From a virus: a stretch of DNA of 20,749 bases. Below are positions 6,895-11,885 of this stretch, piece by piece. Position 1 is the first letter of the stretch; each line of letters starts with the position of its first letter. The translations under genes were made by a program, and so were the position numbers. Under the pieces are notes generated by a model. The model was not told where the DNA came from. It saw nothing but the letters and a program-made list of their open reading frames with translations, and did not search any database. The DNA is taken from positions 1 to 20,749 of IMG/VR virus record IMGVR_UViG_3300027418_000057. One strand, given 5' to 3'.

Positions 6895-7146
6895 ATGTCA
6901 GTTCAAAGATTAGTTCCCTTACACGCAGTAGCACTAGCAACAGATCCAGCAAACCCACGCATAGGTGATATTTATTTTAATACTGCTGAATCTTCTTTAA
7001 AATATTATGATGGTTCGTCTTGGAGCCCAGTCGGTGGTGCCATAACAGGTCTACTAGATCATATTCATACATATGATGGAGCAATTTATTCCGTAGAGAC
7101 ATTTGAAGTTCCAAATCCAGGAACTCTTGATGGTGGCGGTGCATAA
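6895..7146 (+). CDS. Small tail fibre-type protein (83 aa)
   Basis: The core PANPRIGDIYFNTAESSLKY followed by YDGSSWSPVGG (18-48) is the same short module found in the fibres at 5582 and 11934. It probably forms a small beta unit at a fibre joint. The rest (LLDHIHTYDGAIYSVETF) ends in a Gly-rich tail. It may be a connector or a detached N-terminal domain of a longer fibre. AAGGGAG lies 7 nt before the start, and the stop overlaps the next ATG as TAATG. No catalytic motif is seen. Confidence 0.7.
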   Translation: MSVQRLVPLHAVALATDPANPRIGDIYFNTAESSLKYYDGSSWSPVGGAITGLLDHIHTYDGAIYSVETFEVPNPGTLDGGGA

Positions 7147-8627
7147 TGAGTGCAGTTACAATTAAAATAAGAAGAGGAACTTCATCTCAATGGTCTTCTT
7201 CCACAAGACCTTTAGCAGCTGGAGAACTAGGTCTAGATACAACGCTAAATAAAATAAAAGCTGGAAACGGAACAAGTTTGTGGCCCGCTCTTCCATTTTT
7301 AAGTGTTATTCAAAGTGAAATTACAGAAATTGCTCAAGATGCAATAGATTCAGCATTAATTGCAGGCACGGGAATTACTAAAGCCTATAATGATACTGCA
7401 AATACAATTACTCTTGCAGTTGACAATACTATTGCTAATAAAACATATGTAGATACTGCTGTTTCTGGTTTAGGAAACACTGTTGGAGAAACATATCTTC
7501 CAGTTAGCTTATATGGAAATCCAGATGGAGTTGCTACTCTTGATCAAAATGGAAAAATTCCAGATTCTGAAATCCCGTCTGGAATCACAAGAGATTCAGA
7601 GTTATCAACAGCAATAAATAACCTTATAAATTCAGCTCCAGGAACGCTAGACACTTTAGGTGAAATTGCTACAGCTTTAGCAAATGATGTAAGCGGGCTT
7701 AGCGCTTTAACCACTGTTGTAAATTCTAAAGCTCCAATTGCATCCCCTACCTTTACTGGAACTGTTTCTGGAATTACCAAGAACATGGTTGGTTTAGGAA
7801 GCGTCGATAACACTTTGGATATTAGCAAACCAGTTTCAACTGCTCAACAAGCTGCATTAGACCTTAAAGCTAATCTTGCTTCACCGACATTTACTGGAAC
7901 AGTTGCAGGTGTAACATCAACCCACGTAGGACTAGGAAATGTTGATAATACATCAGATGCAAATAAGCCAGTATCAACTGCGACACAAACAGCATTAGAT
8001 TTAAAGTTAAATTCAAATTCTCCTTCAGTTGATTATTATATTGCTAACTCTGGATCTGGAGCCTATTTAGTAAACGGTGTATCTAACGGATTAATTACTT
8101 TTGAAAAAGGCAAGAAGTATAGAATACATGTTAATGCTGCAGGACACCCCTTTTGGATTCAAACAGTATCTGGAGCTTATAGCTCAGGGAATGTATATTC
8201 AACTGGAATAACAAATGGCGGAACACAAGCAGGATATATCTTAGTAGAGCTTCCACAGAATGCTCCAGACAACCTTTATTATGCCTGCGAATTTCATTCA
8301 TCAATGCAAGGTTCTATTTCAGTACAGTCTGATAATGCAATAACAATAAATTCTAAGTCTACCAGTTACACTATTGCGCCAATAGATTCTGGAAGACTTA
8401 TTGAAATGTCTGCAGGCGGAACTATAACAATAACAGATTCTACCTTATTTCCCATTGGATACTCTGTAGATATATTACAAACAGGAACCTCTCAGGTTAC
8501 TATAGCAGGAGATGGATTTACTCCAAACTCTACTCCTGGATTAAAATTACGTGCACAGTGGAGCAGCGCTACACTTATTAAACGAGCACTTAATTCTTGG
8601 GTCATACTTGGCGATTTGAGCGCTTAA
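7146..8627 (+). CDS. Receptor-binding-type tail fibre with Mtd-like N-terminus and cupredoxin-like domain (493 aa)
   Basis: Residues 4-52 (VTIKIRRGTSSQWSSSTRPL, then LAAGELGLDT and NGTSLWPALPFL) match the N-terminal domain of the Bordetella phage major tropism determinant. Residues 71-91 hold the YND fibre repeat. Two tandem 46-residue phage-tail repeats follow (199-244 and 245-290), each with ASPTFTGTV and VGLG-VDNT--KPVST. Residues 296-394 look like a cupredoxin fold with ligand-type residues H334 (AGHPFWI), C381, H384 and M387 (YYACEFHSSMQGSISV). A beta domain (400-493) closes the protein. The start overlaps the previous stop (TAATG) and the ribosome binding site is weak, so coupling is likely. 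There is no C-type lectin variable region. Copper binding is inferred from residues only. Confidence 0.8.
   Translation: MSAVTIKIRRGTSSQWSSSTRPLAAGELGLDTTLNKIKAGNGTSLWPALPFLSVIQSEITEIAQDAIDSALIAGTGITKAYNDTANTITLAVDNTIANKTYVDTAVSGLGNTVGETYLPVSLYGNPDGVATLDQNGKIPDSEIPSGITRDSELSTAINNLINSAPGTLDTLGEIATALANDVSGLSALTTVVNSKAPIASPTFTGTVSGITKNMVGLGSVDNTLDISKPVSTAQQAALDLKANLASPTFTGTVAGVTSTHVGLGNVDNTSDANKPVSTATQTALDLKLNSNSPSVDYYIANSGSGAYLVNGVSNGLITFEKGKKYRIHVNAAGHPFWIQTVSGAYSSGNVYSTGITNGGTQAGYILVELPQNAPDNLYYACEFHSSMQGSISVQSDNAITINSKSTSYTIAPIDSGRLIEMSAGGTITITDSTLFPIGYSVDILQTGTSQVTIAGDGFTPNSTPGLKLRAQWSSATLIKRALNSWVILGDLSA
7740..8015 (+). repeat. Two tandem 46-codon phage tail repeats
   Basis: Within the fibre at 7146, codons 199-244 and 245-290 encode near-copies: ASPTFTGTVSGI then VGLGSVDNTLDISKPVST, versus ASPTFTGTVAGV then VGLGNVDNTSDANKPVST. 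The period is 138 bases. Protein similarity is clear while the DNA has diverged, so this is an old duplication. Confidence 0.8.
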
Positions 8628-8628
8628 A

Positions 8629-9579
8629 ATGGCCAGAAGATTTCGCAAAATTGGCCTATTGGGTAAACTTGGAATAAGAAAAGTTAATGTGCCCAGCCTC
8701 AGTGGACTAACAAGAGCTCAAGCAAAACAAGAATTAGAATCAAAAGGATTAGCCTGGCAAGAAACAGCAGAGACTACAACTAACATAGGTCTTGACTTAA
8801 ATATAAAAGACCAATCAGTGGCTGCAGACTCGGTGATAAAAATTGGAGACGTAGTAAGTTTTACCTATTATGGCTATGTTGCCCCACCTAACTTTAACCC
8901 AGGGTTTGCCCCTGACTTTAACCCAGGTTTTAACCCAGGATTTAACCCAGGATTTGATGCTAACCCAGGATTTAACCCAGGATTTGATGCTAACCCAGGA
9001 TTTAACCCAGGATTTAGCCCAGGATTTGATGTGGGGCCAGGTTTTGATATTACCTTAACATCTCTTGACCTAAGTGCGTTATTTAGTTTTGGTGGAGGAA
9101 AAAGTATTGGTATTGCAACATTAGTTCGCACAACCGATGGTCTTGTTAAAGCAGGCGATTTACAAGTTGGAGATACGCTTCTTTCTGCAAATATTGAAGG
9201 CTTTCCTTATGAGCATGAAGAAGGCGCAACTCAAGCAGCCCTAGACTGGTCAGATGTCAACCCAAACATAATACCAGAAATTACAAATATTGTGGCTTTA
9301 TATAAAACTCAATCTGCTTATGCAGTTGTAATAAATCGAGATGTATTTTCTCAATATCACTATATTTTAATAAAAAGAAACGGCATTGCTAAATTTGAAA
9401 TTTCTGTAAATATATCTCCAGAAACAGATCTTATTTATTCATATGAAAATAGCAGTTGGGAGCCAATCAATCTTTATGAAATAGTTGCGGCACCACATGA
9501 TATTGTTTCAATAAATTGTGAGCCATTTGATATGTTCTATACTGAAAGGATGTTAACCCATGACTCAAGCGCAATATAA
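8629..9579 (+). CDS. PASTA domain + NPGF-repeat + Hint-like (intein-type) structural protein (316 aa)
   Basis: Three parts are visible. Residues 19-81 form a PASTA domain (VNVPSLSGLTRAQAKQEL ... IKIGDVVSFTYYG), a fold that binds peptidoglycan stems in Gram-positive proteins. Residues 88-139 are repeats of NPGF. Residues 159-313 have the block order of a Hint domain: block A SIGIATLVRTTDGLVKAGDL with VGDTLL, block B VFSQYHYILIKRNG (H244), and a last block INCEPFDMFYTERMLTHDS. The presumptive first residue is Ser159; the end is H311-D312-S313, with Asp in place of the usual Asn. Only SAI follows. A full splice is therefore unlikely, but self-cleavage or ligation is possible. There is no clear ribosome binding site; the gene starts one base after the previous stop. 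Confidence 0.7.
   Translation: MARRFRKIGLLGKLGIRKVNVPSLSGLTRAQAKQELESKGLAWQETAETTTNIGLDLNIKDQSVAADSVIKIGDVVSFTYYGYVAPPNFNPGFAPDFNPGFNPGFNPGFDANPGFNPGFDANPGFNPGFSPGFDVGPGFDITLTSLDLSALFSFGGGKSIGIATLVRTTDGLVKAGDLQVGDTLLSANIEGFPYEHEEGATQAALDWSDVNPNIIPEITNIVALYKTQSAYAVVINRDVFSQYHYILIKRNGIAKFEISVNISPETDLIYSYENSSWEPINLYEIVAAPHDIVSINCEPFDMFYTERMLTHDSSAI
8932..9015 (+). repeat. 30-bp tandem repeat (two perfect copies plus 24 bp)
   Basis: Bases 8932-8961 and 8962-8991 are identical 30-mers encoding NPGFNPGFDA. A third copy matches for 24 bases (8992-9015). Looser 15-bp units (AACCCAGGATTT-like) extend the array to about 8890-9048. The array is in frame within the PASTA/Hint protein, so gain or loss of 30 bp would change fibre length without a frameshift. 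Confidence 0.9.
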
Positions 9580-10108
9580 CATTACTGGCATGAAGCCAGT
9601 TGGAGAGTATTCTGTTCCAATATTTTCTTCAATGCCAGAAGAGCTCAAAGGTTGTTGGATACATGTAACAAAATTAGACAACCTAGCGCAAGTAAAATAT
9701 GTAATTTGTGTTTATTTTAATAATAATCATCCAGAAAATACAGTTGTTGTCTCAGATTTTTTGCCAACAGAATATCCAGATTTATACGCAACAGTTAATA
9801 AAAACTTAATGAATGAAAGAGTGTATATTCAGCCAAAATATAGAAAAAGGGGTCTTCTTCCCGTATTTGGTTTAATTGGAAGAACAATATTTTATGAGTA
9901 TTTAGATTCACTTTGCGATGTGCCCTTAGATAGAAGTATGCAAACTGAATCAGCTACGTGTAAAGCAAAAGCTATGTGCAATGAAGAAATAAAAGAAATT
10001 CCAATAGAGCAAAGATCTGCTATATCTTTGTTTGATATCAACCCACCAAGGGATCCCGTTTATCCAAATATTTGGCACGGACACAGAGCAGGAGGAAAAA
10101 ATGATTAA
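9560..10108 (+). CDS. Conserved-type phage protein, possibly GNAT-like (182 aa)
   Basis: The function is not recognised with confidence. The stretch ERVYIQPKYRKRGLLPVFGL (86-105) followed by a helix resembles motif A of GCN5-type acetyltransferases (V-x-P-x-x-R-x-x-G). The preceding strands (VKYVICVYFN, 45-54) could be the core sheet. The acetyl-CoA loop is not canonical, so this is tentative. The C-terminal part is Pro/Asn-rich (INPPRDPVYPNIWHGH). The start overlaps the end of the Hint-like gene by 20 nt in another frame, with AAGGA 11 nt upstream. The end overlaps the next gene by 8 nt. Its place between a Hint protein and oxygenase-like proteins suggests a virion-associated or modification role. 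Confidence 0.5.
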   Translation: MTQAQYNITGMKPVGEYSVPIFSSMPEELKGCWIHVTKLDNLAQVKYVICVYFNNNHPENTVVVSDFLPTEYPDLYATVNKNLMNERVYIQPKYRKRGLLPVFGLIGRTIFYEYLDSLCDVPLDRSMQTESATCKAKAMCNEEIKEIPIEQRSAISLFDINPPRDPVYPNIWHGHRAGGKND

Positions 10109-11234: not shown

Positions 11235-11885
11235 ATGATAATTGATACACCAGCTGTTGGGATTAAGATATATAGAAATGCCTTGCCCGAAGCAATGAAT
11301 ATTCCAGCAAGACTGGAAGAAGTTTTAGGGGCAGGCAAAAGCTCTTTGTTTAAATGGTCGGTTGCTACGGTAGGAGACCATGAAGAAAGACCAGACTATA
11401 GAGACTGTGTTGATTTTAAAATTAAAAGAGATTCTTTAAGGCCAGGTAATGATCTTTCAGATAGTATTATTTCTATACATGATCAAATAACAGAAAAGCT
11501 AAACGAATGCCTAGAGGACTATATGAGTCAATACCGAGTAAATCGTTTAAACTACATGGAAGCAATTAATTTTGTTCGTTACGGAGAAGGCCAGCATTTT
11601 AAAACACACCCAGATAGCGGACCAAGCTATTCTTGTGATGTTTCTACAGTAATGTATTTAAATAGTGACTATGAAGGGGGAGAGTTGTATTTTCCTCATT
11701 TTGACTATACATATGTTCCTCAATACGGAGACATTGTTTTGTTTCCGTCCAGCTATCTTTTTTCACATGCTGCCCTGCCAGTAAAATCAGGCATAAAGTA
11801 TTCTGCGGTAACAATGTTCTCATATAACGACAGAAACCATCAAGACCATGCAAGATACCAGGGTCAAGTTTCTAAAGTTTTATAG
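11235..11885 (+). CDS. 2-oxoglutarate/Fe(II)-dependent oxygenase, prolyl 4-hydroxylase family (216 aa)
   Basis: Uses O2, 2-oxoglutarate and Fe(II), probably to hydroxylate an amino-acid side chain such as proline. The metal triad is present: H125 and D127 in HFKTHPDSG, and the distal H178 in SSYLFSHAALPV. K188 sits 10 residues after H178, where the family binds the 2OG carboxylate. VMYLNSDYEGGELYFP (139-154) and YGDIVLFPSS (164-173) are the usual core strands. The gene is full length for a short phage or bacterial P4H. GGAG lies 5 nt upstream of the start, and a good promoter sits in front. It lies between two fold-related but ligand-poor proteins upstream and collagen-like and other fibres downstream. 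The substrate is unknown; virion proteins are plausible. Confidence 0.88.
   Translation: MIIDTPAVGIKIYRNALPEAMNIPARLEEVLGAGKSSLFKWSVATVGDHEERPDYRDCVDFKIKRDSLRPGNDLSDSIISIHDQITEKLNECLEDYMSQYRVNRLNYMEAINFVRYGEGQHFKTHPDSGPSYSCDVSTVMYLNSDYEGGELYFPHFDYTYVPQYGDIVLFPSSYLFSHAALPVKSGIKYSAVTMFSYNDRNHQDHARYQGQVSKVL

Follow-up and report, generated by a model that had tools for sequence, protein, structure and literature searches.

A fibre-like gene ending in a Hint domain

The window analysed here is a stretch of viral DNA of 20,749 nucleotides, corresponding to positions 1 to 20,749 of the IMG/VR virus record IMGVR_UViG_3300027418_000057. One of its genes is predicted to encode a protein that combines a PASTA domain, NPGF-type repeats and a C-terminal Hint domain (Table 1). 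The PASTA domain and the repeats had already been read in this ORF by a first-pass annotation made from the letters alone, and Pfam and repeat detection recover both. The neighbouring ORFs match Mtd_N and tail-fibre PHROGs, a context that suggests that the protein is a phage fibre, and its PASTA domain is presumed to be 'wall-binding'. The ORF directly upstream (7146-8627) carries the Major tropism determinant N-terminal domain (Mtd_N, E 1e-10), and a single base lies between its stop and the ATG of the Hint gene. Of the 105 records matched by one large structural protein of the window, 88 are from Synechococcus phages and cyanophages (up to about 41% identity among the matches listed). A promoter and terminator scan of the window gave results near chance level.

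Table 1. Features of the fibre-like gene and of the gene that follows it
Feature	Positions	Strand	Details and basis
CDS, fibre-like protein: PASTA, NPGF repeats, C-terminal Hint domain	8629..9579	+	316 aa
PASTA domain, residues 19-80	8683..8868	+	Pfam PF03793, E 1.3e-07, 31.9 bits against a cut-off of 23.2
NPGF-type repeats, tandem array of 12-base and 30-base units	8893..9027	+	Tandem Repeats Finder
Hint domain, residues 159-316, 158 aa	9103..9576	+	AlphaFold2 pLDDT 93.2; Foldseek and VIA against PDB; hhalign
Block A: candidate nucleophile S159 (codon 9103-9105), T164, TTDG, VGD	9103..9186	+	Alignments, conserved Ser
Block B, [ST]xxH, S241 to H244	9349..9360	+	Aligned with TxxH of jumbo-phage Hint domains
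Blocks F and G, residues 290-312, with end H311-D312 replacing His-Asn	9496..9564	+	VIA end point; alignment with jumbo-phage His-Asn
Tail SSAI, four residues after D312	9565..9576	+	Sequence
GAAAGG, Shine-Dalgarno-like, within Hint codons, 10 bases 5' of the next ATG	9544..9549	+	Sequence; role inferred
Following gene (weakly GNAT-like product), with an ATG that overlaps the H311-D312 codons (CATGAC)	9560..10108	+	AlphaFold2 pLDDT 88.8

Membership of the Hint superfamily

Hint domains carry out protein splicing and Hedgehog maturation and also occur in bacterial proteins of varying composition. The first-pass annotation had recognized one here from the order of its motifs (S159 with TTDG and VGD, H244, then H311-D312-S313) and had proposed a profile search and a structure prediction as checks. 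Single-sequence scans were weak, and the motif reading therefore required stronger tests. For the Hint domain alone (residues 159-316), Pfam returned nothing at E ≤ 1 and NCBIfam no Hint model. The NCBIfam scan gave single weak matches to intein models (TIGR01445, NF038136), next to unrelated ones. Against PHROG the domain gave one weak match ('virion structural protein', E 0.011), and in a sequence search of PDB the sole match was a bacterial intein-like domain at E 0.11. When 42 relatives were scanned singly, Pfam matches were again weak: Hint_2 in seven members, Intein_splicing in four, PT-HINT in three, and Hom_end_hint and Hint in one each, with best E-values of 6.4e-4 to 0.18 across these five models. 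PT-HINT had no match at E ≤ 10 in the four clade contigs searched, and exceeded its cut-off of 27.7 in both Alexandravirus genomes (28.4 and 27.9 bits). The whole protein of one member of the Cys/His-Asn Hint group, L023, scored 26.3 with this model, below the same cut-off, so that Pfam is borderline even for that group.

Structure and profile comparisons gave a much clearer answer. The AlphaFold2 model of residues 159-316, computed from an alignment of 42 sequences selected among the fetched relatives, has a mean pLDDT of 93.2 and a pTM of 0.88, and all 41 of its Foldseek matches in PDB at E ≤ 0.001 are Hint proteins. A bacterial-intein-like (BIL) domain is at the top of these matches, which include BIL2 (6y75), the gp41-1 intein, the Clostridium thermocellum BIL domain (2lwy), DnaB inteins and Hedgehog. 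VIA-align superposed 130 residues of the model on BIL2 (Z 17.8, rmsd 1.6) and 130 on Hedgehog 1at0 (Z 17.4, rmsd 1.9). In 29 of the 50 VIA alignments listed (Z 13.8-17.3), the aligned span runs from model residue 1 to 154, that is, to D312, and in the other 21 it ends at model residue 155-158. The end points opposite D312 include residue 440 of the RecA intein and residue 198 of the GyrA intein, which we take to be their C-terminal Asn. By hhalign, the 42-sequence profile matched five jumbo-phage Hint domains of the Cys/His-Asn type with a probability of 98.6 (E 6.6e-16). The same profile matched 2lwy at E 7.8e-5, mainly over block A, and the jumbo-phage Hint profile matched 2lwy at E 3.9e-7 over nearly its whole length. 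In the reverse search, the family profile picked out the Hint proteins of an Alexandravirus (E 7.9e-15) and those of phage NCTB (best E 3.8e-14) within the respective genomes.

Structure, profiles and conservation agree with the Hint assignment and the block order read by the first-pass annotation. Residues 159-316 have the predicted fold, a block A with a candidate residue-1 nucleophile and a block B of the form [ST]xxH, and we regard their membership of the Hint superfamily as near certain. In the model and in the alignments, S159, H244 and D312 sit at the places of intein residue 1, of the block-B His and of the terminal Asn, respectively. That the C-terminal Asn is replaced by Asp had also been seen in the first reading, which counted three residues behind it; there are four after D312 and three after S313.

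Relatives and distribution

Viral contigs were first scanned with the Hint domain of the window, which gave 21 loci at identities of 64-83%. Searching with the PASTA part returned the same 21 contigs, the two lists being compared by eye, so that among these close relatives no PASTA-fibre contig without a Hint domain, i.e. no intein-free allele, was found (21 of 21 contigs). Wider scans used an alignment of 11 domains as query (best 80 of 194 relatives) and divergent members (best 80 of 280). Among ten IMG/VR records searched, two carry two such genes each. In bacterial and archaeal genome contigs, the scan with the 42-sequence alignment produced 54 pattern matches and no relative, whether as a host gene or in a prophage.

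Among 50,697 phage records, the window domain matched only 14 Erwinia and Dickeya records of 261-267 kb, at 21.7-23.6% identity and with a best E-value of 3e-3. Another clade member (L020) matched ten records, all from Erwinia or Dickeya phages and below 26% identity, and three others (L069, L092 and L075) matched none at E ≤ 0.01. In our searches, the family with Ser at residue 1 and Asp at the end was thus seen only in sequences assigned to metagenomic phages, its matches among isolates being distant jumbo-phage tail proteins. Jumbo-phage Hint domains were found in Alexandravirus, Yoloswagvirus, Rivsvirus, Yersinia phage fHe-Yen9-02 and phage NCTB. The last (LT598654, L112) encodes three Hint proteins in a tail-fibre cluster (BN7874_132, 135 and 136), already annotated as containing an intein domain. 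BN7874_135 is a stand-alone Hint protein of 153 residues in which the block-B His is replaced by Tyr and the His-Asn end is intact. As this degenerate protein is still encoded, some phage Hint domains persist without a full active site. A query with a jumbo-phage Hint domain also retrieved Alcaligenes phage Afa-NA1 (L107) and Salmonella phage Sen-NF (H67) with an identical match (36.8% identity, same query range and E-value); the two records, from different hosts, may have a region in common or reflect a record mix-up.

The first-pass annotation knew of no described system with this architecture. This is no longer accurate for names: close structural matches in BFVD are proteins of uncultured phages called 'Hint domain containing protein', 'PASTA_pknB domain containing protein' or Fibronectin type III, and the NCTB entries bear the name 'putative phage tail protein, contains intein domain', so the domain has already been named in databases. 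As to function, our literature search, which covered titles and the beginnings of abstracts and mostly fell outside subscription journals, returned no work on a fibre-borne phage Hint domain or on its role.

Conservation of the active-site positions

Numbering the alignment from S159 as column 1, relatives in the 42-sequence alignment, which extends down to 33% identity, share 15 invariant columns, including S1, H86 and D154. Five others (I137, C139, E140, P141 and D143) fall inside the search pattern; the conservation of block F is inflated because the relatives were mostly collected with the pattern INCEP[YF]D. Residues were counted over all fetched loci, in 88 unique domain rows derived from 93 hits. 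Column 1 is Ser in all 75 aligned rows and a gap in the other 13 of the 88; 11 of these gaps belong to the group of jumbo-phage, NCTB and related uncultured sequences, one (L137) to a truncated contig and one to L138, in which by eye a Ser stands just ahead of the aligned start. The codons for this Ser are TCN in 54 rows and AGY in 21; both serine codon families being in use, the residue has survived a change of codon family. The [ST]xxH motif is preserved as well: of 87 aligned rows, 85 have His at column 86 and 86 have Ser or Thr at column 83. Compared with the window, dN/dS is 0.11-0.28 in 12 comparisons, indicative of purifying selection.

The C-terminal end is conserved in another form than in inteins. 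At column 154, 74 of 85 rows have Asp and the other 11 have Asn; nine of these 11 come from the jumbo-phage, NCTB and uncultured group. The remaining two Asn rows, L160 and L184, are members of the Ser/Asp clade that end in Tyr-Asn instead of His-Asp, with Leu next. In this clade, counted as 76 rows after removal of the 11 jumbo-phage, NCTB and uncultured rows and of the open-ended L022, the terminal residue is Asp in 74. Inteins have His just before this position; among 86 aligned rows, 31 have Tyr or Phe there instead. Position +1 varies in the clade (Ser 34, Gly 32, Asn 7, Leu 2, Thr 1; Ser in the window), and the tail behind the terminal residue has 2-46 residues with a median of 6. At the other end of the domain, a Lys directly precedes S1 in 49 of 74 rows.

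We considered whether Asp312 could be a by-product of the ATG of the next gene, which starts at 9560 and shares its G with the Asp codon. Only 15 of the 76 clade rows show such an overlap with an ORF of 100 aa or more and 61 lack it, and Asp is found in 74, so this explanation was rejected. A class 3 intein mechanism using C297, the conserved Cys of the INCEP motif, found no support. C297 aligns with a Val of the jumbo-phage Hint domains, three residues after a block-F Asp in the usual naming of block-F positions, and across 87 aligned rows of the wider set its column holds Cys in 68 and otherwise mostly Val (9) or Thr (8).

Variation of the N-terminal modules

The part of the protein upstream of the Hint domain differs widely between relatives. 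According to rough local profiles and a regular expression, it is of Fn3 type in 38 of 85 rows, PASTA in 33, collagen-like in seven and other in seven. Pfam scans of ten members placed PASTA above the cut-off in L002, L065, L105 and L160 and Fn3 in L069, L075 and L092; the same set yielded sub-threshold Fn3 in L052 and PASTA in L139, and collagen in L023. A Hint-domain tree was computed by a quick method from the 85 rows with 130 residues or more, and several of its long branches were flagged. In it, the Ser/Asp group forms a separate clade of 75 rows with an SH-aLRT of 100. Placing the PASTA and Fn3 labels on this tree takes five changes, one of which is a doubtful split of the near-identical pair L160/L184. 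Varied N-terminal modules (PASTA, Fn3 and others) are thus joined to one conserved Hint core.

The downstream gene

The GAAAGG motif ahead of the next gene looks like its ribosome-binding site, and its counterpart in related loci is GAAAGGATG or GAGAGGATG (12 loci). Of 90 Hint ORFs, at least 52 are directly followed on the plus strand by a relative of this gene, a lower bound because identical ORFs were collapsed; the remaining 38 include contig ends, collapsed duplicates and jumbo phages. These relatives diverge to about 19% identity, and a tblastn search of the phage collection with the copy of the window found nothing. In an alignment of 43 of the 53 distinct hits of this family, Acetyltransf_1 matched ten members (best E 2.2e-4), and unrelated models reached similar E-values (CR4_N in three members, Ntox50 in two). 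Foldseek gave no match at E ≤ 0.001 for its model. With VIA, most of the matches listed were acetyltransferases, with Z up to 6.6, a value possible without kinship. We accordingly call the product weakly GNAT-like, and its pairing with the Hint ORF may be explained by shared synteny among related phages.

Comparison with known Hint systems

The nearest structural counterparts are BIL domains (2lwy and BIL2, 6y75), which share with the window the Hint fold, a nucleophile at residue 1, the block-B His and the lack of a conserved +1 nucleophile. The window domain differs from them by Ser at residue 1, by Asp in place of the His-Asn of the A type, by having only a short tail behind it and by its phage fibre context. 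A-type BIL domains end in His-Asn; the domain of the window ends in His-Asp, and 74 of 76 clade rows have this Asp. The motif pattern of the window would agree with the published description of B-type BIL domains, which have the intein motifs other than the C-terminal one and cleave at their N-terminal side (PMC7765530); the comparison was made with this description, at the level of motifs.

The Hint domains of jumbo-phage tail proteins resemble that of the window in their C-terminal location on a tail- or fibre-type protein, in their short tail and in the next gene following closely. They differ from it by the Cys at residue 1, the TxxH and the His-Asn of their intact members, by a collagen-like stalk where tested and by a different next gene. 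The Hog domain of Hedgehog (1at0) has the same fold and also stands C-terminally after another domain. Its residue 1 is Cys, whereas the window has Ser there, a terminal Asp and no sterol-recognition region, for which there is no room because only the four residues SSAI follow D312.

Class 1 inteins with an atypical C-terminal Gln or Asp (PMC4031507) are similar to the window in having Asp at the Asn position and Ser at positions 1 and +1. However, class 1 inteins are in-frame insertions with intein-free alleles and a conserved +1 nucleophile; in the window no conserved host protein is interrupted, no intein-free allele was found among close relatives and position +1 is unconserved in the clade. 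Since +1 is not conserved, the domain lies at the C-terminus and no Hint-free fibre was found among the 21 contigs, it would be an integral autoprocessing domain and not a mobile intein, and a homing endonuclease would presumably not fit into its 158 residues. The first-pass annotation had likewise preferred an autoprocessing-type domain to a splicing intein, a preference that structure, profiles and conservation now strengthen.

A possible self-cleaving fibre and alternative explanations

The conserved Ser, His and Asp at the active-site positions of a true Hint domain suggest that the fibre probably cuts off its Hint domain. We favour, with modest confidence, a reading in which the Hint domain of a tailed-phage fibre or adhesin self-cleaves before S159 by an N-to-O acyl shift and so frees the PASTA/NPGF fibre at maturation. 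The fold would strain the K158-S159 bond, H244 and its neighbours would promote the shift onto S159, and the resulting ester would be hydrolysed or attacked by an amine, releasing the fibre from the Hint domain during maturation. Published reviews describe partial reactions of this kind: B-type BIL domains, which lack the C-terminal motif of inteins, cleave at their N-terminal side (PMC7765530), and Hedgehog employs the first acyl shift only (PMC7664689). At D312, where Asp stands in for Asn, cleavage probably proceeds slowly if at all, and the short tail would probably be dispensable. Slow cleavage there keeps some probability because cyclisation is described for inteins that end in Asp or Gln, those with Asp being able to splice (PMC4031507). 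The chemistry, its timing and the presence of the protein in virions are inferred.

The alternative that deserves most weight, although we consider it unlikely, is that nothing is cut and that the fold serves as a structural cap, as an interface within a trimer or with a partner, or as a chaperone. The conserved Ser, His and Asp could then have been retained for structure instead of catalysis. Asp in the Asn position, Tyr or Phe before it in so many aligned rows, the degenerate stand-alone protein of phage NCTB and the divergence of the window domain beyond the reach of the Pfam Hint models all fit such a silent domain. Serine is, besides, less nucleophilic than cysteine would be at residue 1. 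A purely structural role, however, does not predict that Ser-1 is kept through both codon families together with [ST]xxH, and catalysis at S159 seems somewhat likelier to have been retained than lost. The same residues S1, [ST]xxH and His-Asp, with Ser at +1, would also permit complete splicing of a class-1-like intein that joins the fibre to SSAI, C-terminal-Asp inteins being described as capable of cyclisation and splicing (PMC4031507). To this reading we give the least credence, given a +1 position that is Gly almost as often as Ser in the clade, a downstream extein reduced to a short and variable tail, and a PASTA-part search in which every contig had its Hint domain.

Self-cleavage before S159 might also be coupled to ligation, an amine or hydroxyl resolving the ester so that the fibre becomes joined to a subunit, to the host surface or to another partner, perhaps with the help of the GNAT-like neighbour. 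Hedgehog-type Hint domains transfer their ester (PMC7664689), and the frequent adjacency of the next gene as well as the common Lys before S1 would agree with such a step. But synteny among related phages could account for the neighbour, 38 of the 90 Hint ORFs showed none, and the GNAT assignment is weak in Foldseek, VIA and Pfam alike; we see a slim chance that ligation takes place. Slimmer still is that of a more elaborate version, in which an exchangeable adhesin (PASTA, Fn3 and other modules) would be made as a Hint precursor, ester-activated at S159 and then passed on to an acceptor by a covalent bond, the recurrent GNAT-like neighbour acting as acyl-transfer partner, in a system widespread in uncultured phages. 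If true, it would represent a Hedgehog-like or ligase-like route to anchor or modify a phage fibre.

Returning to simple self-cleavage, a Ser/[ST]xxH/Asp clade at the end of modular phage fibres would point to self-cleavage or conjugation in the making of adhesins. It would supply compact, N-terminally cleaving Hint domains in which Ser replaces Cys at residue 1, and would account for many unnamed proteins of metagenomic phages. Whether the fibre cuts itself before S159 is a question that can be tested.

The window encodes one more protein that may be connected with the fibre. A gene for a 2OG-Fe(II) oxygenase (11235-11885, Pfam E 7.4e-14) is located near the gene of the proline-rich NPGF fibre, and its product could act as a hydroxylase of that fibre.
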